From Chlorella sorokiniana (taxonomy: Eukaryota; Chlorophyta; Trebouxiophyceae; Chlorellales; Chlorellaceae), in the NCBI GenBank assembly GCA_025917655.1, contig CP084614.1, positions 744,001 through 808,000 on the forward strand: DNA of 64,000 nucleotides, written 5' to 3'. The position numbers were made by a program, and so were the translations under genes. Under the pieces are notes generated by a model. It saw nothing but the letters and a program-made list of their open reading frames with translations. It had not been told where the DNA came from and ran no database searches. Below, piece by piece: positions 16,619 through 30,288 of this stretch (positions are counted from its first letter, which is position 1; every line of letters starts with the position of its first letter).

Positions 16619-17433
16619 GCCGCGTGCGTGGCATGCCAAGCTGAAGGAGGAGTTGGAGGCAATGGACTTCCACCCCTCAGCTGCTGATCCAGCCCTGTTC
16701 ATCAAGTCTGGCCAAGACCCAGTCTTCTTGCTGGTCTACGTGGACGATATGCTGATCGTCACCCGCCTCATCTCTGACGTCAATGAGACCAAAGGCAAGA
16801 TCAAGTCAGCCTTTGAGGCACGTGATCTGGGCGCTGCCACCTGCTTCCTTGGGATGGACATCCACCGCGACCGCAGCGCCCGCACCATCTCTCTGGGTCA
16901 GCACCGCCTGACAGCAGACCTGTTGGACAAGTACGGCATGGTAGAGTGCAAGCCGCTGAGCACTCCAATCAGCACCGCCGTCAAGCTGACCAAGGACGGC
17001 GAGCTGCTGGACACCCGCACCCATGCCTACTCTCAGCTGGTAGGCAGCCTTATGTATTTGTCGGTCTGCACGCGCCCAGACCTGGCGCAAGCCGTGGGAG
17101 CACTGGCCCGCTTCATGGCAAAGCCCACTGTCACGCACTGGCAAGCTGCCAAGGGCGTGTTGCGCCACGTCGCTGGCACCGCGCATTACGGCATCACCTT
17201 CGGCGGGAGCGGCCTGAGCTTGGAAGCCTTTTGTGATGCTGACTACACCGGAGACCTTGATACCCGCCGCTCCACCACTGGGTATGTGTTCACTCTCAGT
17301 GGTGGTGCAATCAGCTGGTCGAGCCGCTTGCAGCCAACAGTTGCAGCTTCCACAACCGAAGCTGAGTACATGGCAGCGGCCTACGCCATCAAGGAGGCTC
17401 TCTGGCTGAGGACACTGCTGAACGACCTGGGCA
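16616..17433 (+). mobile_element. Ty1/Copia fossil 1, middle piece (RT end and RNase H start)
   Basis: This second piece of the Copia fossil covers the later part of the reverse transcriptase (catalytic YVDD region) and the RNase H domain up to the point where LINE-A copy B is inserted. The Copia order Int-RT-RNase H is respected relative to the piece at 1,280. A stretch of pol is missing between the two pieces, at the site of LINE-A copy C. Confidence 0.85.
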
Positions 17434-17440
17434 GGAGGCC

Positions 17441-17441
17441 G

Positions 17442-17523
<82 letters not shown>
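17441..17523. repeat. (GTT)n microsatellite = 5' end of LINE-A copy B
   Basis: About 27 uninterrupted GTT units between the copy B insertion point (GGAGGCC) and the leader TTTACTTGCTCTCGCC. It is the same junction as in copy A, so the tract appears to belong to the element. Confidence 0.95.
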
Positions 17524-17526
<3 letters not shown>

Positions 17527-17978
17527 CTTGCTCTCGCCCACCCTGGAGTTCCTCTAGCCCGCCTCACCGGGCTGCCCCACCTCGCGCCAGCGTTCGGCTG
17601 CGCTTGATATTAGTTTTACGTCAGCTGTGGCGCGATTTTGTCGCGAGCGGGGCACACACCCCTCGCTCTGCGACTTTCGCCCTTGTCGCGTTTCCCGCCT
17701 GTCCCTCCGCGCGCGGAAGCGTTTATAGCGGATTTAGTTGGCGATTTTTACGGCGTTTGCAGCGCGGTATTACGGGAGTCTCGCTCGTGGCGGTTGGATT
17801 GCGACTTCCGCTTTTACCGGCGTCTGTCGTCTGCATCCCGCGCGCACAACAGCGCTAAGGTGACCTTTACTGTCAGGTTTGCCCGGCGTCAGCACCCATG
17901 GCGGCGCCTCAGCCTCCTGTGCCGCCGCCCTGGCCGCCAGTGCCGCCAGTCGTGGTGCAGCAAGCAGTCGACGGTGTA

Positions 17979-18177
17979 TTTTTTTTTTTTTTTTTTTTTT
18001 TGAGGGGGTGCTCTTACACTTGAGACGCATACACACACAAAACAAAAAGAAAAAAATCTGCGTACCACCCCGTGACTGCATGCCCCATCTTGCTGTCACA
18101 TGCGCGTTCGCGCTGCTGTTTGGCTGCCTCATCGGTCATGATGCTTCGTGGCTTCGGCCTACCTACGCTTCTTGAGA
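17979..18177 (-). mobile_element. LINE-A insertion with twin-priming inversion
   Basis: The insert starts with a T-run and 26 bases of the LINE-A 3' end on the minus strand (17,979-18,026). It then switches to ~150 bases of adjoining 3' UTR in plus orientation (18,027-18,177). The duplication AGTCGACGGTGTA flanks both sides (to 17,978 and from 18,177). About six or seven bases of the hairpin loop are lost at the inversion joint. This is the classic product of twin priming described for L1. Confidence 0.92.
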
Positions 18178-18500
18178 GTCGACGGTGTATTACGCTCGGA
18201 CGCTGATTATCTTAGCTCCAAACGGTTTCAGCCAGCTGGTTGCATGTATCTGGAGCTTGATGTGGCTGAGGCAGTGGGCCGCTACGCCTCAGCTGATCTC
18301 AACGAGGAGGCGTACTCCGCCTTTGCGTCGCGGATCGTCAGCCAGGCTTATTTGCAGCATGCAGACTTTATTGCGGGCCTTGCGGCGGGGCCGTCTCGCC
18401 GCGGCTGGCAGCAGTTGGCCCGTGTACAGATGGTGCCGCGCCGCGGCAACGACGCCGTTCAGCGCTTTGCAGCTGTTGTGCAGGCGCAGCGCCTTACTGT

Positions 18501-18874
18501 TTTTTTTTTTTTTTTTTTTTTTTGAGGGGGTGCTCTTACACCTGAGACGTGGGGGATCTCAAGAAGCGTAGGTAGGCCGAAGCCACGAAGCATCATGACC
18601 GATGAGGCAGCCAAACAGCAGCGCGAACGCGCATGTGACAGCAAGATGGGGCATGCAGTCACGGGGGTGGTACGCAGATTTTGTTTTCTGTTGGTTTTGT
18701 GTGTGTATGTGTGCTCGGTATGTCGCTGTGAAAGCAGATGAAACGCGAGATCCCGGCAACCGCCAGACTGGGGCAGGCAGCGGCACAACAGGGCAAGGCA
18801 AAGAACTGAAAGACCCGAGGCGAGGATGGAGCAACCCACCACGGAAGAGACGCAAAGGCAACCAGGCCAAGACA
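18501..18874 (-). mobile_element. LINE-A 5'-truncated insertion (374 bp) in copy B ORF1
   Basis: Minus-strand 3' end of LINE-A: T-run 18,501-18,523, hairpin region, then 3' UTR of the long subtype up to a 5' truncation at 18,874. The 15-bp duplication GCAGCGCCTTACTGT lies at 18,486-18,500 and 18,875-18,889. Confidence 0.95.
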
Positions 18875-20166
18875 GCAGCGCCTTACTGTGCAGGTGGATG
18901 ACGTTGCAGTGGGCATTCCCGTCAAGTCTGTCCTTGGCTACCTCCCGGCGGACCATTGGGTTGTGGAGCTGCGCAGCCTGCCCTCTCAGTTCGTCGTGAG
19001 TGGCACCACGGAGGCCCTGCTGGCTGTTTTTGGATACGACGCGGCCAGCGGTGTCTCTGTTGTTCATGAGCGAGCAGGTGTGGCTGCCGTTGGGCCTGGG
19101 CAGGAGGCCCATTTGCCTGTTCTGGATATGATTGAGGCAGTGGTCCGGGTGCCTTATCCCCACGCGGGACTGCCTCGCCTGCCGCGGGTGGTACAGGGGC
19201 TGGGGTGGTCTGCTCAGGTCGTATTGCGTCCCTGTGTCTTTGAGGGGGCGTGTTGTCTTGCGCCGCGTGCGGCCTGCATCTGGGCAGCAGCCAGACGCGG
19301 GGCTGCACCCAGGCGTGCGGCCCGGTATGCTCCGCGTTTTTGGGACCGGCGGCATCACGCCGGCTGCTGCTGCCGCAGCCTTGGCGGCGCCTTTGGGCGG
19401 CGGCGCCCGGCCGCTGCCAGGGGGCAGCGGCCAGGTCTGGGCCTGGCGGATGTACCTGCTGCCCCCTTGGCCGCTGGGCCTGCTGCCGCCCGGGTGGTCC
19501 CGTTGCCCCGCGGGCCCCTCCTCCCTCCCCCTCCCCTTCCTGCAGAAGAACCCATGCCGCAGGCCGCGCCCGCAGCGCAACGTCCCGAGGGAGAGCCTGG
19601 GTTTGATGTGGCTTGTGATTTTGTGGCGGAGGAGTTGGATTGTTCTGCGGCCGAGGCAGAGCAGATTGTTCTTGCGGCTCGTGAGGCGCAGCCTGCGGTC
19701 TACAGAGATGCGGCCCACGCCTCTCGCCCGGGTGACTTGCCTCGTGCTTTCAGATTGGCTCTGCATGCCCAGGCTGTTGTTTTGTTGGGCGAGCCGCGGG
19801 CTGCGGCTTTGGAGGTGGCCCCGCTTGCGGTAACTGGGGAGGCAGTGGGGGCGCCTAGGTCGTCGCGTCTTGCGGCCGCCCCCTCCCTCCTCTGCTTCCC
19901 CCGCCCAGGCCCATACCGCCCACCAAGCTCTGCCAAGCGTGGATCTGTCACAACCTTGGCAAAGGGCCCTGCTGGCACCCAGGGCCACCTGCCATCTGCT
20001 TCTGGCCCTCGCCGCTCGGCGCGTTTGTCGGCTCCAGCCGAGGCGCCCACAGCTGGTTGACAATTGCGACGCGGGCGGCGCCTGAGCGGGGGCGCACGTC
20101 TGGACACACCCACCTCCACGATTCTTCCACCGGTTGCGGCAGCAGGAGCCGCAGCCGGCCCCGCAG

Positions 20167-22220
20167 ATGAGTCGTTTTGATTGGCGGGCCGCTCGCCCTG
20201 CCCAGCCTTTGCGCCTCGTGGCGGTCAATGCTAACGGCCTGCGTGATGCTGCTAAGCGGCACCAGCTGCTTGAGCGGTTCATCGCTGGTCCTTGGCATAT
20301 GCTGCTTGTGTTTGAGGCGCATGCTGCCTCTGCGGAGGAGGTGGCAGGCTGGGCACGCGAGGGCACAGGGCGCGGCTCGCCTTTTGCGGGAGCAGCTTTT
20401 GCTGCCCCGCACACTAGCTCTTCTGCTGGGGTGGTTGCCTTCATAAAGGCCACCGCCCCCGTGGAGGCCGTCACGCTGGCGGCTGTCCCGGCCCAGGAGG
20501 GCAGGCTTCTCCATCTTTCCTTCTCCTATGCAGGCCTTCCCTTTTCAGTCCTTGGCTGTTATGCGCCCACGGAGGCGTGCAACCGCCCTGCATTTTTCTC
20601 CAGGTCCCTTGCTGCAGCAATCCCCACCGACCGCCTTGTGCTCATGGCTGGCGATTGGAACCACGTTTCTGATCCCTTGGACGTTGCCGGCGCTACCGCC
20701 CTTTCACGGCATCGATTTGCCGGCGCGGAGGAGTTTGCTGCGGTGGCGGCTCAGCGCAACCTGGTGGATGTGTGGCGGCGGCTCCACCCGGCGGCACGTG
20801 CAGTCACGCACGTAGCCTCCGGGGCTGCAGGCGGGGCGCGCTTGGACCGTTGGTATGCGGCAGCGCCCCTGCTTGCAGGGATTAGCAGCGCAGGCATCCT
20901 TCATGGCTTCCCTGGCGATCACCTCGCTGTGGATGTCCATTTGTCGCCCCCTTCCGTCGTCCCTGCTGGCCCTGGGCGCTTCCGCCTCCCTGACCACTTC
21001 CACTCCGACCCAGATTTCGTCGCTTTTGTCCGCCAGCACATCCACACCTTTGCAGAGGAGCACCCCGTGCAGCCTGGCGCCCGCCGCGCTTACTGGGTTG
21101 CACTCAAGGCCCACCTCTCCACCCACGTCGTGGCATTCACTGCAGCCCGGCGGCGGCAAGCGGATGCCACGAGGCGCGCGTTGTTGGCTGCAGTGGAGGA
21201 CGCCATGCGAGCATATCTTAGCCAGCCCAGCCACCCAGCCACGCTTGGCCTGCTCCGACGTGCGACCGCAGCCTTGAGGGAGCATGACGCGGCAGCAGAG
21301 CAGCGGCGGCGCGAACAGCTGGGCGCCGCCTGCGTGAGGCAGACCTGCCCCGTGAGCAGTACACTGTGGCATACCGCGTGTTGCATGGGTGCCTGTATGT
21401 GGGCGCCTTCCTTTGCCACATTCGGGTCGTGCCAGCGGCAGATGCGTTGTGCCAGCACGGTGATTGTGCGGCAGCAGCGGATCCGCCCCTTGATGGGCTG
21501 ACCCATGCATTCTTGCTCTGCCCCGCCGTGGCCGCTGCTGCCGAGTGGGTCTGTCGTGTCTTTGCGGCTGTCTCGGGTGTGCGCCCTCCTCCCCTCTGTC
21601 CCCGTGTCTTTCTTGCAGATGAGCATGCCACTTGGGCCCCACCCGCCCGTCTTCGCCACGTATGGGCACACCTGCGCACCGCTTACCTCTACGCTGTGTG
21701 GCAGATGCGCGGCCGGCGAACTCTTGCGGGCCAGCCCATCTCGCCCGCCAGCGTGTGCGGTGCCACGGTAGCAGCGGTGCTGGCTGCCATCAAGCGGGAC
21801 TGGGCGCGGGCCACGCACAACATGCGCCGGCTGGATGGCACCTATGCTGAGTGGTTCCGTGGCCGCGACACCTCCCTCCGTATGGGCCAGTTCAAAGCGC
21901 GGTGGACCCACAGGGGCGCGCTTTGTGTTGTGGAGGCGGGTGCTATGCGGTTGCGCTTCAGCCTGTCCCACCCGGTGGCCGCACCAGTGGAGGGCCCTTC
22001 TGCGTCTCGGGTGCCTGCAATTGCCCCTGCGTCCTGCCTTGGTCCCTTGCCCCCTCCACGCCTGCAGCTCTCCCCTGCCTCCGCTCGCCCTGGTGGAGCC
22101 TCACCTGCGGCTCTCCCTCCTGCGGGGCCGCTGCTGAGTATGGAGCGTGAAGGCGGGGCAGCCCCTTCAAGCGGCGGGGCAGCAATGGCACGGGCTGCAC
22201 CACGAGCGGGCGTCGGTTAA
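20167..22220 (+). pseudogene. LINE-A ORF2 remnant (copy B) without RT
   Basis: The endonuclease domain is open from MSRFDWRAARPAQP through GDHLAVDVH into the linker. At about 21,320 the sequence joins, out of frame, to the C-terminal part with the zinc-binding CQHGDC...LLCP region, which then runs to the ORF2 stop at 22,220. Compared with copy A the missing piece corresponds to about 9,043-11,904. The two edges share only TGG, suggesting end joining. The copy is non-autonomous as read. Confidence 0.85.
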
Positions 22221-23187
22221 CTCTCCGCCCTGCCCTTTTCTGGCTGGGGCCCTCCTCTTCTTTGCGGGGCGCTTTCCCACGGCCTCAGCGGCCTTCTTGT
22301 TATTTTTATGCTCGGCCGTGCTGCTTCCACTCCCTTTTGGGCCATGCGATACAGCCTGACTTCTGTTCATCTTTACATGCGCGCTGCTGGGGCTCCTTCC
22401 ATTCTTGCAGGCGGCGGCAGTTGGGCGGCCGGCAGCGGCAGCGGCGATGGCGGCAAGTGCGTGTGTAGTGGCGCGGCGGGTGATGGGCGTTCGCCACCGT
22501 GTGTGGCAACGTGCCGGCGGGGTCCGCCGCCCCCGCCCGGCTTGCCTTGCGGCACCCGCGCCGCCGGTCCCAGCGGGCCGGCAGGCACACCTGCGGAGCG
22601 CGTACATGCCCTTGCTGTCGGTAGTCGTGTGCCCGCCAGCCCTCGGCTTGCCCCGTCCTTGCTCTTTGCATCCATTGGCTGACGGTTCCCAAGCGCTCGG
22701 CTCCTGCGTTGACTTGTCCCTGTTCCCATGGCTCCCTCCAGCACGCTTCCACACTCGATTTCCTCGCCCCTTTCTGAGTGGCTTGCACCTTCCCTTTCCA
22801 TGGCTCCCCTCCTTTTCTTAGCCTGCCCCCTCCTGGACGCCCCCTTCTCCCTGTCCCAGTACGCCCCCCTTTTTTTTTGTCTTGGCCTGGTTGCCTTTGC
22901 GTCTCTTCCGTGGTGGGTTGCTCCATCCTCGCCTCGGGTCTTTCAGTTCTTTGCCTTGCCCTGTTGTGCCGCTGCCTACCCCAGTCTGGCGGTTGCCGGA
23001 ATCTCGCGTTTCATCTGCTTTCACGGCGACATACCGAACACACATACACACACATAACAAAAAGAAAAAAAAATCTGCGTACCACCCCGTGACTGCATGC
23101 CCCATCTTGCTGTCACATGCGCGTTCGCGCTGCTGTTTGGCTGCCTCATCGGTCATGATGCTTCGTGGCTTCGGCCTACCTACGCTT

Positions 23188-23215
23188 CTTGAGATCCCCC
23201 ACGTCTCAAGTGTAA
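23188..23215 (+). promoter_or_regulatory. LINE-A 3'-terminal hairpin and TGTAA poly(A) signal
   Basis: A perfect 7-bp stem, CTTGAGA (23,188-23,194) with TCTCAAG (23,204-23,210), encloses loop TCCCCCACG. It is followed at once by TGTAA (23,211-23,215), GAGCACCCCCTC and the A-tail. The same block ends every A-tailed copy here (1.53, 7.3, 16.55, 18.0, 18.54, 26.43 and 28.08 kb, partly truncated in some). TGTAA is the common green-algal poly(A) signal. That the hairpin is an RT recognition element is an inference. Confidence 0.75.
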
Positions 23216-23222
23216 GAGCACC

Positions 23223-23265
<43 letters not shown>

Positions 23266-23725
23266 GACCTGGGCATGGCTATGCACACTATCGAGATCCA
23301 GGCCGACAGCCAGAGCGCCATCAAGCTGCTAAAGAACCCCGTCTTCTCCATGCGCTCGAAGCACATTGATGTCATCTACCACTTTGCGCGCGAGCGAGTG
23401 ACCCGCAAGGACATCACTTTCAGGTACATCTCCACAGATAAAATGGTGGCTGATGCCCTGACCAAGCCATTGGCCTCGTCCAAGTTCGTTTTCTGCCGCA
23501 CCGCTATGGGCATCGGCGGCACCGACAGCGACAGCAAGTGAACAGCTTTTGCTGGGCACTAGATGATGCAGCTCGACAGTCTGCGTGGGAGTGTTGAAAG
23601 TGGGTTCCTGTGAACCCTCTGTTCAGCCTGCCGACCTGCATGTGCCCTTGTTTGTCATCGTTTGTCGCCATCTGTCCTTGCTTGTCCGCGTCTGTCCTTG
23701 TTTGTCCCGGTCTGTCTCTAGACCT

Positions 23726-23925
23726 TTCTAGAAGCTTCTCGACCCGACTTCTCCAGAACATCCTTGAACATTCCAGAACATTCCAGAAGCTTCCGCGCGC
23801 ATTCCGCTGCATGCTTCCAGAAACTTCCAGAGACTTCCGGAAGCTTCTACACACTTCCGTGCATCCGTTTCCAGATGCTTCTCGATCCTTCTGGAACCTT
23901 CTACAGCCTTCCGTCCAGAAGCTTC
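23726..23925. promoter_or_regulatory. Array of heat-shock elements (nGAAnnTTCn) in the LTR
   Basis: Alternating GAA and TTC blocks recur at exact 5-bp spacing. 23,726-23,738 holds TTC-GAA-TTC. 23,756-23,793 holds eight units in register with one mismatch, six of them perfect (GAA at 766, 776, 786; TTC at 771, 781, 791). 23,815-23,847 holds seven units with one mismatch. Weaker units continue from 23,869 to 23,925. The HSF consensus needs about three units. The array lies 40-240 bp upstream of the TATA box. HSF binding is an inference from the motif. Confidence 0.8.
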
Positions 23926-23966
23926 CAGATCATGCTGTGCATGCTGTGACTTTCTAGCCGGCGGCC

Positions 23967-23974
23967 TATATAAG
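23967..23974 (+). promoter_or_regulatory. TATA box of the Copia LTR
   Basis: TATATAAG within GGCCTATATAAGAGGCC, about 40 bp downstream of the last heat-shock-like motif and ~90 bp before the LTR end. This placement suits an LTR core promoter with transcription starting near 24,000. Confidence 0.7.
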
Positions 23975-24063
23975 AGGCCTGTCGCCCTTGATGGCAACTT
24001 TTCCATCCTTTTATTTTCAGCTGTCTTGCCCACCGGGCTGCTGCCCCTCGTGTAACTTCAACA

Positions 24064-24516
24064 CTGGAGACGACACCCACAGCAGCGAGTCTGAGCCCCA
24101 GCCCCAGCGCGAGGCGGCCCCGGCTTGAGTGGGCCCACGTCGCCGTTCTCGCGGCCCCTACCAGCCCGTGCCCGGCTTGCGTTGGATTCTTCCTTGCCTT
24201 TTCTGACTCTTTCACAGATTTCCTTGCTTTGCATCCTTGTCATCATGCTTTGCGTGCATGGTTGCTTGCCCTCCCGTGTGCTTGCTGCATCGTGCATCTT
24301 CACCTCGGCGCGATGGGGGTGCGCGGGCCCGGGCTTTGACTCCCGTGCGCTGCTGGCCTGATGAGTTCCCCGTTTCGAGGGCCAGCCCGTTCCTGTCTGC
24401 TGGCTCCGGCTGCAGCAGGGATGGGCCCGTTTGCGTCTGAGTTGCATGGGCCCTATGCCCCGTCTGCGAGGGACAGTGATTGTCCCGAAGGCAGACGTTA
24501 AACACGTGTAACATAA
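24064..24516 (+). mobile_element. LINE-T 3' end, right flank of the Copia insertion
   Basis: Begins within the last codons of LINE-T ORF2 (CTGGAGACGACACC...), passes its stop and 3' UTR, and ends in the (TAACA) tail near 24,516. It is most simply the continuation of LINE-T copy 2 (506-1006) displaced by the Copia fossil. About 260 bp of LINE-T between the two is missing, so this link is inferred. Confidence 0.75.
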
Positions 24517-25255
24517 CATTGGTTGCGGGTGGAGACTGGGCGGCGTGAGGGGTTGGACAGGCCCAGCCGGATTTGCCCCCACTGCTCGTTGGGTGCTGTG
24601 GAGGACGAGCATCACATGGTGTTTGACTGCCCAAAGTATGCCCGCCTGCGTGCCGATTACAGCGAGTCCCTTTTGGGGGTCGGTCAGGGCCCGCCCAGAG
24701 GTCCGTTGGCGGGGCAGGGAACCTTGGCACAGTTCCTTGCGCAGGAATCGGTGGCGGTGGCCAGCTTTGTGCACCATTGCTACCGTCTGTCGTTGGCTGG
24801 AGACGACACCCACAGCAGCGAGTCTGAGCCCCAGCCCCAGCGCGAGGCGACCCCGGCTTGAGTGGGCCCACGTCGCCGTTCTCGCGGCCCCTGCCAGCCC
24901 GTGCCCGGCTTGCGTTGGATTCTTCCTTGCCTTTTCTGACTCTTTCACAGATTTCCTTGCTTTGCATCCTTGTCATCATGCTTTGCGTGCATGGTTGCTT
25001 GCCCTCCCGTGTGCTTGCTGCATCTTGCATCTTCACCTCGTCGCGATGGGGTGCGCGGGCCCGGGCTTTGACTCCCGTGCGCTGCTGGCCTGATGAGATC
25101 CCCGTTTCGAGGGCCAGCCCGTTCCTGTCTGTTGGCTTCGGCTGCAACAGGGATGGGCCCGTTTGCGTCTGAGTTGCATGGGCCCTATGCCCCGTCTGCG
25201 AGGGACAGTGATTGTCCCGAAGGCAGACGTTAATCCAGTGTAACATAACATAACC
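24517..25255 (+). mobile_element. LINE-T copy 3, 5'-truncated
   Basis: Starts straight after the tail of the previous LINE-T, in the C-terminal coding region (GGTTGCGGGTGGAGACTGGG). It includes the zinc-binding motif CPHCSLGAVEDEHHMVFDCP, reaches the stop near 24,861, then the 3' UTR and a (TAACA)n tail ending about 25,252. This is head-to-tail packing like copies 1 and 2. Confidence 0.85.
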
Positions 25256-27567
25256 CCCATCGCGTCGAGGTGAAGATGCAAGATGCAGCAAGCACACGGG
25301 AGGGCAAGCAACCATGCACGCAAAGCATGATGACAAGGATGCAAAGCAAGGAAAACTGTGAAAGAGTCAGAAAAGGCAAGGAAGAATCCAACGCAAGCCG
25401 GGCACGGGCTGGCAGGGGCCGCGAGAACGGCGACGTGGGCCCACTCAAGCCGGGGTCGCTCGCGCTGGGGCTGGGGCTCAGACTCGCTGCTGTGGGTGTC
25501 GTCTCCAGCCAACGACAGACGGTAGCAATGGTGCACAAAGCTGGCCACCGCCACCGATTCCTGCGCAAGGAACTGTGCCAAGGTTCCCTGCCCCGCCAAC
25601 GGACCTCTGGGCGGGCCCTGACCGACCCCCAAAAGGGACTCGCTGTAATCGGCACGCAGGCGGGCATACTTTGGGCAGTCAAACACCATGTGATGCTCGT
25701 CCTCCACAGCACCCAACGAGCAGTGGGGCAAATCCGGCTGGGCCTGTCCAACCCCTCACGCCGCCCAGTCTCCACCCGCAACCAATGACAGCCCGTGCGG
25801 AACCTGGCCAGGCTGGCCATGCGCACACGGCTGTCAACCTCGGTCAGGTACGGTTGCGGGCGACGGCAGTACGTATCACGCGTGAGCCCCCCTCACACTA
25901 GCGCAGTATAACTGCACTTTGGGCTGGGATGGTGCTCCCTGCAGGACGCCCTCGACGTAGGCCTCGTCAGCGAGGCTGCACGCCTCGCCAACATCGACCA
26001 GGCAGGGCTCCCCACCATCAAGGGGACCCAACTCCAGGCTGCGAAGGTATCCTACAACCTGGGTCCCCCACGGCTGGCGGGCGGTGGCCCCACCCGCCCC
26101 GCCGTGTGCCCGCAAAAGGTCTACCTCCTCAAAGAGTGCCCACTTGGTGACGCGCGTATCTGGAAGGCCCACCAGCCTGTTCCAGAAACGAGTCACCATC
26201 TTTCCCCGGTGAGTGGCAAGGGGGTAAAACCCTGCCTCGGCCAGCACCACAGGAGCGGGAGTGCTTTGCGGCAGGCGCCCCATCGCGTGCCGCAAAAATG
26301 AGCGCAAGAGCCGCTCGGAAGCATCCTCCCCACCCCGTGACTGCATGCCCCATCTTGCTGTCACATGCGCGTTCGCGCTGCTGTTTGGCTGCCTCATCGG
26401 TCATGATGCTTCGTGGCTTCGCCTACCTACGCTTCTTGAGATCCCCCACGTCTCAAGTGTAAGAGCACCCCCTCAAAAAAAAAAAAAAAAAAATCCTCCC
26501 CACCCCCTCGCAAGAACTGCGGCGCCCACACCTCGCAGCCATACGACACCACCGGCAGCACCAAAGCCTGGAAAAGCCGCCTTTGCAACCCAAAGTCAGA
26601 CGTGCCAATGTGTGAGAGTTGACGCCGCATGGCGTGCAAGGCCCGTAGGCCCGCCCTGCCCAACTCTGCGCAGGCAAAAGGCCCAAACGCTAGTAGCTGG
26701 TGTAACTACACCCCAAGGTACCTAAAGGAGGGTGCTATGGCCAGCCGCTCCCCCTGGTACGTGAGGCGTGGTGCTGGCCTTGCCGCCACGCGAGAAGAGG
26801 CGGGGAAGACCACCACCTTGGTCTTCTCAACATCAACGGTCAGGCCCCAACGCTCACAGTACCGCTCCAGCACCCCCAGGTGTGCTTGGAGCCCAGCTGC
26901 CGTAACGGACACGAGCAGCAAGTCGTCAGCATACAACAACGGTGGGACCCTGTGACCACGCAGGGCGGGCAGCACAACCCCATCCGCACTCATCACCCAC
27001 TGCTCAAGGTCGTCTAGAAACAAGCCAAACAAAGTGGGGCTCAGCGGGCACCCCTGCTTGACGCCAATGGAGGATTGGAACAAAGGAGTGAGGCCCTCGT
27101 GCGTGCGGACACACATGGGCACATCCCCGTACAATGCCTTCACCGCATCAAGCAACGCCGTGGGCATCCCACGGCGTGCAAGCTTGTCCCAGAGCAACCT
27201 CCTATCCACCAGATCGTACGCTTTCTTGAAATCCACAAAGCAAGTGAACAAGGACGCACCCCGTGCCCGAGCGGATTCAATCAGCGTGCGCAACACGAAA
27301 ATCTGGTCAGCGGTCCGGTGGTCCTTCCGGAACCCTGCTTGGCCTGCAGCTCTCAGGCCTGCCCCCTCCGCCCAGTCCGTGACCCTCTTGTTCACCAAGA
27401 CGGCATATAGCTTTGCCAGCAACGTGCCAACTGCAATGCCCCTGTAGTTGCCAGGCTCCAACGGATCACCGGCCTTGACTATGGGAGTGATAGCACTCAC
27501 CGCAAGGACCGACATCGTCCCAAGGCGACGGCAGGCATTGAAGACAGCGCTATGGCAGGAGCCAATG
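25256..27567 (-). mobile_element. LINE-T copy 4 with reverse transcriptase
   Basis: The longest LINE-T copy. On the minus strand, RT occupies about 27,560-26,700 (GNYRGIAVGTLLAKLYA, GFRKDHRTADQIFVLR, FVDFKKAYDLVDRRLLW, VKQGCPLSPTLFGLF, LLYADDLLLVS). A linker follows (LVLPVVSYGCEVWAPQ), then the zinc-binding end CPHCSLGAVEDEHHMVFDCP near 25,730, the ORF stop near 25,455 and part of the 3' UTR. The tail is missing at 25,256 and the 5' end (endonuclease) is missing at 27,567. A 156-bp LINE-A insertion splits it at 26,337. The RT domain reads open for ~270 codons. Confidence 0.9.
26337..26492 (+). mobile_element. LINE-A insertion (156 bp) in LINE-T
   Basis: The last ~137 bases of LINE-A, from GTGACTGCATGCCCC through hairpin and TGTAA, plus a short A-tail. 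Flanked by the duplication ATCCTCCCCACCCC (26,323-26,336 and 26,493-26,506). Confidence 0.95.
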
Positions 27568-27669
27568 TTATGTTATGTTATGTTATGTTACACTGGTTTA
27601 ACGTCTGCCTTCGGGACAATCACTGTCCCTCGCAGACGGGGCATACGGCCCATGCAACTCTGACGCAAA
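27568..27669 (-). mobile_element. LINE-T tail fragment
   Basis: About 80 bases of LINE-T 3' UTR with a (TGTTA)n run on the plus strand (27,568-27,590) as its tail. It sits between LINE-T copy 4 and a Copia fossil. A severely 5'-truncated insertion, or the end of copy 4 after rearrangement. Confidence 0.75.
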
Positions 27670-28831
27670 AGAATGTCGTCGACGTAGATGAGCAGGTAGA
27701 CTGGTGGATAGGAAAGCTTGATGAAGAGGCTTGGGTCAGCAGTTGACTCGGTGAAGCCCATGGACTCGATTTCGGTCTTCAGGGTGCGATGCCAGGCTCG
27801 AGAAGCTTGCTTGAGTCCATAGAGGGCCTTGTTCAGCTTGCAGGCTTGGTCGTGGTTGCCGTTGTGGTAGCCTGGAGGTTGCTGAATGTAGACGTCTTCG
27901 TCCAGCTTGCCGTTGAGGAAGGCGGTCTTGATGTCCAGCTGGTGAATCTCCAGGTCCAGGTCGGCAGCAATGGCCAACACGGTGCGCAGGGTGGAGTATT
28001 TAGAGACAGGAGCAAATGCTTGGTCGTAGTCGATGCCTTCACGTTGGTGGAACCTCTTGACAACGAGGCGGGCCACGTCTCAAGTGTAAGAGCACCCCCC
28101 CCCACCCCACCCCACCCCACCCCAAAAAAACAAAAAAAAAACGAGGCGGGCCTTGTAGCGCTCCACGTTGCCGTTGGCGTCGCGCTTCAGGCTCGGCTGT
28201 TGCTCCCACGGACTCGGTGTCGCCGGTGTCGTCGGTGTCGATGAGGGAGATGGTCTCTGGCAGGTTGGGCTTGGGCAGGTTGGGCTTGGGCAGGTTGGGC
28301 TTCGGCATGTTGGAGTTGGTCTCATTGAAGGTTACGTCGTGGCTGATGACGATGGAGCCGTTGTCGAGCAGGATCTTGTGGCCTTTGGTGTTGGTGGGGT
28401 AGCCGATGAAGCGGCCGGGCTCGCTGACGGCGTCGAGCTTGGAGCGCAGCGCTGTCGGAATGTGGGCGTAGGCACGGGCGCCAAAGATGCGCAGGTGGGA
28501 GAGGTCGGGCTTGGTGCCGTGTAGCATCTCGAAGGGGGTGACGTCTTGGGCAGATGTTGGAGAACGGTTACGCAGGTAGTTGGCGGTGGCGATGGCTTTC
28601 GCCCAAAAGGTGCTTGGGCAGGTTGTACTCGGCCAGCCTTGTCCAGCAGGGTGCGGTTGAGACGCTCGGCCTTGCCGTTTTGCTGGGGCGTGAGGAGACG
28701 GTGGTTTCTGACTGGATGCCCTTGGACTTGTAGAAGGTGTCCAGGTCGTTGTTGATGAACTCGCCGCCGTTGTCGGAGCGGATGCGCTTGACGGTGTGGC
28801 CGGTCTGACGCTCCAGTAGGTGGTACATCAG
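27670..28831 (-). mobile_element. Ty1/Copia fossil 2 (integrase end and RT)
   Basis: Minus-strand remnant of a second Copia element, distinct in sequence from fossil 1. It covers part of the integrase core with its C-terminal extension and then the front half of the reverse transcriptase. No LTR or gag is visible, both ends stop abruptly in LINE-T sequence, and it contains a LINE-A micro-insertion. It is broken by at least that insertion and by loss of both ends. Confidence 0.8.
28075..28139 (+). mobile_element. LINE-A micro-insertion with CCCCA-repeat tail
   Basis: Starts inside the LINE-A hairpin loop (ACGTCTCAAG), has TGTAA and GAGCAC, then an expanded run of C and CCCCA units followed by A7CA10. 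The duplication AACGAGGCGGGCC flanks it (28,062-28,074 and 28,140-28,152). Only ~20 bases of true element sequence were copied. Confidence 0.9.
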
Positions 28832-29103
28832 CTACACGCGTTTGGGCCTTTTGCCTGCGCAGAGTTGGGCAGGGCGGGCCTGCGGGCATTGCACGCCATG
28901 TGGCGCAAGCTCTCACACATTAGCACGTCTGACTTTGGGTTGCAAAGGAGGCTTTTCCAGGCTTTGGTGCTGCCTGTGGTGTCGTACGGCTGCGAGGTGT
29001 GGGCGCCACAGTTCTTGCGAGGGGAGGGGAGAATGCTTCCGAGCGGCTCTTGCTGTTTGCTGGCTTCTGCTACAGCAAGGGTGGGCCCGTTTGCGTCTGA
29101 GCT
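28832..29103 (+). mobile_element. LINE-T fragment (linker region plus 3' UTR piece)
   Basis: Plus-strand LINE-T linker downstream of RT (contains LVLPVVSYGCEVWAP), joined near 29,040 to a short piece resembling the LINE-T 3' UTR (GGGCCCGTTTGCGTCTGAG). The join is not collinear with other copies, so the fragment is rearranged. Confidence 0.75.
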
Positions 29104-29825
29104 GCATGTTACACAAAACCCTGCCTCGGCCAAAACCACAGGAGCGGGGGTGCTTTGGGGCAGGCGCCCCATCGCATGCCGCAAGAACGAAGCAAAATGC
29201 AGCAAGCACACGGGATGGCAAGCATCCATGCACGCAAAGCTCGATGGCAAGGATGCAACGCAAGGCAAAATGTGAAAGAGTCAGAAAAGGCAAGGAAAAC
29301 TGCAACCCAAGCGGGCATGGGCTGGCAGGGGCCGCGAGAACGGCGACGCAGGCCCACTCAAGCTGGGGTCGCCTCGCGCTGGGCCGGGGGGGGGGGGGCA
29401 CAGACTCGCTGCTGTGGGTGTCATCTCCAGCCGACGACAGACGGTAGCAATGGTGCACAGAACAGGCCACTGCCACCGGATCCTGCTCAAGGAATTGTGC
29501 CAAGGTTCCATGCCTCCCCCCCCCAAAAAAAAAGGTTCCATGCCTCGCCAACGGACCGTTGGGCGGACCCTAACCGACCCCCAAAAGGGACTCACTGTAA
29601 TCGGACCGCAGGCGGGCATACTTTGGGCAGTCAAACACCATGTGATGCTCGTCCTCCACAGCACCCAACGAGCAGTGGGGGCAGGTCCGGCTGGGCCTGT
29701 CCAACCCCTCACGCCTCCCGGTCTCCACCCGCAACCAACGAACCTCGGTCAGGTACGGTTGCGGGCGACGGGAGTACGTGTCACGTGTGAGCCCCCACCT
29801 CACACTAGAGCAGTATTACCCTAAA
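29104..29825 (-). mobile_element. LINE-T, rearranged minus-strand pieces
   Basis: The main piece (about 29,193-29,825) runs on the minus strand from the zinc-binding C-terminus (CPHCSLGAVEDEHHMVF near 29,690) through the ORF stop into a truncated 3' UTR. A separate ~85-bp minus-strand piece of the RT-to-C-terminus linker lies left of it (29,104-29,190). A 16-bp retrotransposition scar occurs at 29,516 and a long G-run at 29,387-29,397. Confidence 0.75.
29516..29531. mobile_element. 16-bp insertion scar (C9A7) with target-site duplication
   Basis: Nine Cs and about seven As stand between two copies of AAGGTTCCATGCCT (29,502-29,515 and 29,532-29,545). The uninterrupted LINE-T sequence at 25.58 kb has one copy. 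C-run plus A-run is how LINE-A ends, so this is probably an almost empty LINE-A insertion. Confidence 0.75.
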
Positions 29826-29927
29826 CAAGTGTAACATAACATAACATAACATTTTGGCCCAATGCGCCGTCCGCAGGGGACAGTGATTGTCCCGACGGCA
29901 GACGTTAAACAGGTGTAACATAACAGA
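29826..29927 (+). mobile_element. LINE-T tail fragments
   Basis: (TAACA)n at 29,830-29,852, then ~60 bases of diverged LINE-T 3' UTR end and a second (TAACA) tail ending about 29,927. This is the last repeat-derived sequence before unique host DNA. Confidence 0.75.
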
Positions 29928-30288
29928 TCTCCATCGGTGTTCGCAGCTTGTTCCTTTGGCACATGTTCTGCACAATCTCATTAATTTGCTTAGAATTCTA
30001 GCCCTCATCACTTTGTAACGATGATTGATCTTGATAGGAGCAAAACAAATGACGATATGTATATGGGTTGAACTCTCTGAAGTCATTCTAGGTCAGGGCT
30101 TGTTGCAGACAAGGAGCGTCTGCTGTACGTTCGTGTGAAGCCAAGGCGATACAGGTTCGTGTATATCGCATCGGGCTGTCCTATGCCTACTGATGGCATT
30201 ACTGCGCTGCTGCTTTCCCCACTAAGAGCCTTCTCCATCGCTGACATTGAAGGGTTGCGCATCCGCGCTGTGGTGCTGACTGGCACGC
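29928..30288. other. Unique sequence between repeat cluster and apyrase gene
   Basis: No repeat copies and no gene I can support. It would contain the 3' UTR of the minus-strand apyrase gene. A 68-codon open stretch on the plus strand (30,093-30,296) lacks a start codon and resembles nothing I know. AT content is higher in the first 150 bases. Confidence 0.5.

Follow-up and report, generated by a model that had tools for sequence, protein, structure and literature searches.

The 472-bp long terminal repeat (LTR) that ends at position 24063 of the window, by which we mean the whole 64-kb stretch of DNA analysed here, carries long arrays of alternating GAA and TTC units in 5-bp register, and these arrays in the U3 part probably act as the promoter, driven by heat-shock factor (HSF), of a Copia lineage that resides in the probable centromeres of a green alga. 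The window LTR is the 3' LTR of a broken Copia copy, and the parts of this copy are the following:

16653..17433, plus strand: reverse transcriptase / RNase H part of the same Copia element, Pfam RVT_2 (PF07727)
17434..23261, no strand: nested insertion of LINE-like material that splits pol, with a poly-A on the right and a 14-bp duplication on either side
23262..23541, plus strand: RNase H C-terminal part of the Copia polyprotein, ending in ...MGIGGTDSDSK, 62-80% identical to other copies
23592..24063, plus strand: 3' LTR of the family-A Copia element, 472 bp, with ends TGTTGAA...TTCAACA
23726..23738, plus strand: perfect heat-shock-element (HSE) trimer TTC GAA TTC, units read directly
23756..23793, plus strand: HSE array 1, GAA TCC GAA TTC GAA TTC GAA TTC
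23815..23847, plus strand: HSE array 2, TTC GAA TTC GAG TTC GAA TTC, seven units in 5-bp register with one mismatch
23889..23901, plus strand: further perfect HSE trimer TTC GAA TTC
23965..23976, plus strand: TATA box, TATATAA from 23967, inside GGCCTATATAAGAGGCC

The textbook HSF site consists of GAA and TTC in alternation at 5-bp intervals. Array 1 holds eight units in this register with one mismatch, six of them perfect and consecutive from 23766, and all the arrays sit upstream of the TATA box; direct reading confirms the original prediction of an eight-unit and a seven-unit array with one mismatch each, a trimer at 23726 and a TATA box at 23967. Perfect runs of at least three units occur five times in the 64-kb window (the longest with six units), and all five lie inside the LTR, compared with a mean of 0.12 such runs in 60 first-order Markov windows, which had at most one run per window and none longer than three units. 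By the count of register pairs, the window LTR scores 14 against 0.32 ± 0.58 (maximum 4) in 500 dinucleotide shuffles, which do not preserve the 10-bp tandem-repeat structure of U3; given that structure, tandem expansion probably produced some of the units, which cannot all be counted as independent. A chance origin of the arrays was set aside, as the Markov windows, the shuffles and a reversed-pattern control (see below) all gave far lower values. No tRNA or Rfam family was found within the 64-kb window.

The RNase H frame of the window copy stops at 23541, 50 bp before the family-A LTR begins, and no second family-A LTR was found inside the window. The 14-bp duplication around the nested insertion lies at 17420-17433 and 23262-23275, and an open reading frame within the insertion (20134-21501) gives a weak endonuclease match below the Pfam cut-off. 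An LTR 100% identical to that of the window (on contig C6) over all 472 bp is present at C10:595061-595532 in unrelated flanks, where it heads a 465-codon open gag-pol frame that runs to the end of the analysed stretch and encodes Copia gag (PF14223), Pol_BBD and gag-pre-integrase domains. This 5' LTR is followed by the primer-binding-type sequence GGTTACGGGCCCC, which we read as a putative site of half-tRNA priming. The identical LTRs, unrelated flanks and open frame show recent movement of the family, so that the description of the copy as a fossil holds for the window copy, whose pol is split by the insertion, and fails for the family as a whole. Pol is interrupted in the examined A (window) and C copies, and many copies in the blocks described below are LTRs without intact pol. 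The minus-strand stretches 27588-28076 and 26706-27515 of the window hold a second Copia reverse transcriptase (RT) fragment, family-D-like, beside a LINE-type RT (RVT_1).

By its domain content the lineage is a Ty1/copia LTR retrotransposon, with Copia-type gag in the C10 copy, RVT_2 in the window copy and integrase (PF00665) in homologues among the matches listed. Among the 120 polyprotein matches listed of 384, the named ones come from green algae or bear generic names; the closest is from Chlorella sorokiniana (67% identity over 78%), followed by Parachlorella kessleri (60%), C. vulgaris (53%) and Micractinium (43%), and metagenome polyproteins in the same list reach 67%. These matches place the host probably within or close to Chlorella. 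Searches of viral_contigs returned three loci with weak matches (42% over 50 residues), and searches of genome_contigs 14 loci with bacterial titles at 24-42% identity, with no algal DNA in either set.

LTRs recovered in searches with the window LTR and a family-C LTR were sorted by hand into families A, B, C, E and a diverged F; they occur on contigs C2, C3, C4, C6, C7, C8, C9, C10 and C12, with a fragment on C5. After removal of partial copies, one split LTR and all duplicates, whether exact or nearly so, we counted 28 LTRs, 22 of them related to that of the window and six from family D, another Copia with 353-bp LTRs in the same blocks that served as control. The original prediction had proposed as its test that the register be kept in other copies of the family, and in-register units were indeed present in 22/22 related LTRs, with 5-17 register pairs each against shuffle means of 0.17-0.37:

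Family A (window type): 14, 10, 10 and 6 register pairs
Family B: 11, 11, 9, 10 and 11 (five LTRs)
Family C: 17 in seven LTRs and 15 in one (eight LTRs)
Family E: 16, 16, 15 and 15 (four LTRs)
Family F: 5 (one LTR), with no run of three
Control family D: 0 in 6/6 LTRs

Many copies exceed the perfect runs of the window copy, the LTR of one subfamily having 4+7+7+3 perfect units. The idea that the array is a general feature of the centromeric elements here was rejected, as family D has none in any of its six LTRs. TG...CA ends delimit the LTRs of families A, B, C and D, with some E and F ends less precisely placed, and a 5-bp target-site duplication is perfect in three of the four LTR pairs whose outer flanks are separate (B on C2, D on C4 and D on C3) and matches at 4/5 positions for B on C3, the tandem C copies being uninformative. 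Family B has LTRs of about 489 bp, in pairs differing at 1/489 and 2/483 sites, and short elements, about 2.3-2.8 kb from one LTR to the other, that contain a gag-like remnant. The LTRs at 3046819 and 3051771 on C2 were considered as a pair belonging to one element and rejected.

Comparison between the families indicates that no other noncoding part of the LTR is as well conserved as the array block. Across its 162 columns the window LTR is identical to the representatives of C, E and B at 130, 137 and 131 positions, respectively (80-85%), and no indel is required, compared with 71-76% identity in the TATA/R part and mostly gaps in the upstream part; other family-A copies have 10-bp deletions within the block that leave the 5-bp register intact. 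In RT/pol, A differs from C or E with a dS of 1.5-1.6 and a dN/dS of 0.13, 57-59 of 98 fourfold sites being different, and a noncoding block only 15-20% diverged beside nearly saturated synonymous sites argues for constraint. These synonymous distances are saturated and noisy, as dS between A and D (about 1.0) is below that between A and C (about 1.5) even though dN is higher for A versus D. When a third family served to define the units, conservation of units relative to the 2-bp spacers was significant in 0/11 single-representative comparisons (lowest p 0.06), including three with the diverged copy F (p 0.46-0.69). Pooled ratios, which reuse related copies, favour units in the comparisons with A and are equal in several among B, C and E.

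Long perfect arrays are, as far as seen, special to the Copia LTRs. The exact five-unit pattern has 77 overlapping matches in the 38.8 Mb genome, all 77 in these Copia elements, and the reversed-pattern control has none; by manual grouping the matches form 33 arrays, 29 in LTRs and four in a second promoter (see below), on seven contigs (C2, C3, C4, C6, C7, C10 and C12). When one mismatch is allowed, 174 matches are obtained against one in the control, and among the 100 listed there is none on C1 and on C2 only in-block matches, while the four-unit pattern occurs at 72 places (control 2), with all of the 50 matches listed in the C2-C4 blocks. The three-unit pattern is not exclusive, having 311 matches against 159 in the control; the 100 matches listed, which span C1, C2 and C3 to about 2.085 Mb, include five outside the blocks on C1 and five on C2. 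Within this listed range, none of five HSP70 loci has a perfect trimer within 190 kb, the nearest lying 198 kb away, which argues against the motif as the alga's standard site at HSP genes; host heat-shock genes thus seemingly lack perfect trimers, as far as seen. An exon for an HSF DNA-binding domain is located at C5:1574262, and its translation matches PF00447; the genome encodes at least one HSF-type domain (two candidates were scored), a lower bound since the search was intron-blind.

The putative second promoter belongs to subfamily C, in which a stretch with arrays of 4, 5, 2, 4 and 2 units and the TATA-like CATAAAAGG follows directly after the pol stop and precedes an extra open reading frame, ORFX. 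The stretch and ORFX lie at two places:

C4:2279361-2278559, minus strand: second HSE-dense stretch and ORFX
C12:1412009-1410916: second HSE-dense stretch and ORFX

ORFX would encode a coiled-coil-like product of about 184-227 amino acids (184 codons in the C4 copies) and runs into the LTR. Its matches in the genome comprise three C4 copies and one C12 copy; no Pfam match was found for it, and among 58 candidates three metagenome proteins are relatives (80% identity over the whole length, 100% over 61% and 72% over 64%). The metagenome relative P0121 carries a segment missing from the C4 copies, and P0123 ends in another frame; since the relatives differ in length and in the frame of the C-terminus, the C4 and C12 copies look damaged.

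The genomic distribution of the lineage is highly restricted, a point absent from the original prediction. All 89 Copia RT matches, counts being lower bounds, fall into one block per contig on 11 of the 15 contigs (C2-C10, C12 and C13), the largest block measuring about 94 kb and the matches together spanning less than 1% of the genome; the same genome search found none on C1, C11, C14 and C15. All array-bearing LTR matches likewise lie within one block per contig, and the exception outside the blocks is an LTR remnant without array at C3:2960121-2960223. LINE-type RT matches (n=57) are found within 40 kb of a Copia match in 41 cases and elsewhere in 11, and the remaining five make up the blocks of C1 (at 2.62 Mb) and C11 (at 1.34 Mb). 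According to the cited part of a study of Chlorella centromeres, each chromosome has one cluster of Copia and LINE elements, CENH3 ChIP-seq validated Copia centromeres in C. sorokiniana NS4-2 and C. pyrenoidosa DBH, and 13 centromeres of SLA-04, with Copia plus L1 and RTE-X, were placed by dot plot (PMC11005252). By analogy with that arrangement of one Copia and LINE cluster per chromosome, the blocks are probably centromeres, and Copia or LINE blocks on 13 contigs here compare with the 13 centromeres given for SLA-04 in the same part of the source (PMC11005252).

From the position of the arrays upstream of the TATA box, their conservation, unmatched by other noncoding parts of the LTR, and the presence of at least one HSF-type domain in the genome, we strongly infer that they would be HSF sites driving the LTR promoter. 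The sequence also suggests that heat stress may switch array-bearing elements on; HSF binding and heat induction are predicted, as is the centromere identity of the blocks. HSF activated by heat or other proteotoxic stress would bind cooperatively, as trimers, to the alternating GAA/TTC pentamers that precede the TATA box in arrays of 6-8 (elsewhere 7+7+4+3), and the bound HSF would start genomic RNA synthesis from U3. The outcome would be stress-driven transcription and, given an intact copy, transposition that leaves the putatively centromeric chromatin and returns to it. A more far-reaching reading, which we regard as doubtful, has the centromeres wired to the stress response, such that heat would open centromeric chromatin and drive Copia transcription, re-insertion and centromere renewal. 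As part of that doubtful reading, the genome's strongest HSF sites by perfect-unit count would be the centromeric Copia LTRs and not the chaperone genes, and ORFX would have an HSE promoter of its own.

HSF may also bind the arrays in a different role, in which they keep centromeric chromatin open or gather HSF and thereby allow transcription of the centromeres, basal or linked to stress, which the host would tolerate or put to use. Open chromatin is maintained by HSF bound at promoters, and in human nuclear stress bodies HSF1 accumulates on pericentromeric satellite III, a precedent for such a role. The arrays are indeed located in one centromere-like block per contig, the blocks hold every exact five-unit site, many of the copies are LTRs that lack an intact pol, and the CENH3 chromatin of related Chlorella is hypomethylated and Copia-rich in the cited part of PMC11005252. 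We nonetheless consider this role unlikely, as some centromere-like blocks have no arrays (five-unit arrays occupy seven contigs, and C1 and C11 are without Copia RT), and recent movement together with strong purifying selection on pol (dN/dS 0.13) argues for selection on the element itself.

Quite unlikely, in our view, is an origin without HSF, in which the arrays would be a by-product of 10-bp tandem-repeat expansion (one DNA turn) or the sites of another factor. TRF reports period-10 arrays over the HSE stretch and also over the adjoining 23646-23716, which has no GAA/TTC, and the lack of perfect trimers at 5/5 HSP70 loci in the listed range fits such an origin as well. This neighbouring period-10 stretch, however, is not retained in B, C and E, which kept the GAA/TTC block; the alternation of GAA and TTC persists over several arrays despite variable spacers and phase shifts, and is missing altogether from the control Copia family D. 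The alternation is moreover that of the HSF site, in line with the criteria for heat-response elements (HREs) in the cited part of PMC5059998. Conservation of the array block might instead reflect exchange of LTRs between families (by recombination, gene conversion or template switching) and not selection for a response to HSF. Exchange of LTR pieces between families did take place and could mimic selection, as mosaic E LTRs have a D-like head of about 75 bp (C3:2112453-2112527, C2:3051682-3051755 and C2:3092781-3092855) followed by a C-type array, and the copies are crowded in the same blocks, with tandem LTR-internal-LTR arrays on C4. It is very improbable as the source of the conservation, because identity in the block is about the same (80-85%) between A and each of B, C and E, a pattern that old common ancestry predicts and recent exchange does not, and because similarity is lower in the flanking TATA/R and upstream parts. 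We favour the reading of the arrays as a putative HSF-driven promoter of the element itself.

Heat-responsive Copia elements of land plants are among the closest known systems. Like the algal LTRs, the Brassicaceae families ONSEN/ATCOPIA78, COPIA37, TERESTRA and ROMANIAT5 are Copia elements with adjacent nGAAn units, and the window LTR and its relatives share with ONSEN the trait of at least three such units in the LTR. In Brassicaceae COPIA families, according to the cited part of PMC5059998, predicted HRE strength tracks heat induction, with up to thousand-fold accumulation for 4P types, and by analogy with this yardstick the algal LTRs would be strong. The algal arrays differ from those of ONSEN-type families in length, with 6 to 8 or 7+7+4+3 units against at most 4P arrays described in that part of the source, in their green-alga host and in the second array promoter that one subfamily has before an extra ORF. 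They differ also in genomic home: ONSEN integrates into active chromatin (cited part of PMC9780303), which, judged indirectly by location in one centromere-like block per contig, is probably not the case in the alga. The proposal of an algal counterpart of ONSEN holds for the putative mechanism, by analogy, rather than for membership of the ONSEN family.

The location pattern likens the lineage to the centromeric Copia-1_Chlorella_NS and Copia-2_Chlorella_SLA04, which also lie in centromere clusters. The word 'heat' is absent from the main text of the paper on Chlorella centromeres, and no regulatory array is described in the cited part of it (PMC11005252). Human satellite III and its nuclear stress bodies likewise represent repeats by centromeres that are transcribed under stress, the algal ones being putative HSF targets; satellite III is satellite DNA, whereas the algal arrays are the LTR promoter of a retrotransposon, to which HSF binding is predicted. 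Heat-responsive Copia in land plants and Copia-built centromeres in Chlorella are thus each known already, and our literature search, in which coverage of subscription journals and preprints was sparse, found nothing that joins the two. What appears to be new is a heat-element Copia in a green alga, its residence in centromere-like blocks and perfect arrays longer than the ONSEN 4P type. If the arrays work as predicted, heat-responsive LTRs would extend beyond land plants and centromere-dwelling elements would answer the cell's main stress factor; environmental stress could then be tied, in a way open to testing, to centromeric transcription and to the rapid turnover of centromere sequence in a 38.8 Mb genome.

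Several structural features of the blocks were also recorded. On C4, LTRs and internal regions of subfamily C alternate in tandem (LTR-internal-LTR-internal-LTR, period near 5.47 kb; C4:2266942-2289550), and a family-D Copia (C4:2272306-2278042) with identical LTRs and the target-site duplication GCTTG has inserted into this array. The subfamily-C RT (C4:2269330-2269190 and the matching C4 copies) is split at one site by a short poly-T-headed insertion that is flanked by the 9-bp duplication GCCTGGCAT and is missing from subfamily E. Three partial family-B LTRs, spaced at about 4.55 kb, lie among tandem repeats of a 140-bp-class sequence at C4:2253073-2262364, and the C3 block contains a large segmental duplication (approximately C3:2047139-2064000 and C3:2075734-2092000) with family-A and family-B LTRs. 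In the window, dense direct and inverted repeats adjoin the LTR (24064-25728 and 29050-29932), with arms of 255-300 nt and complementarity of up to 100%.
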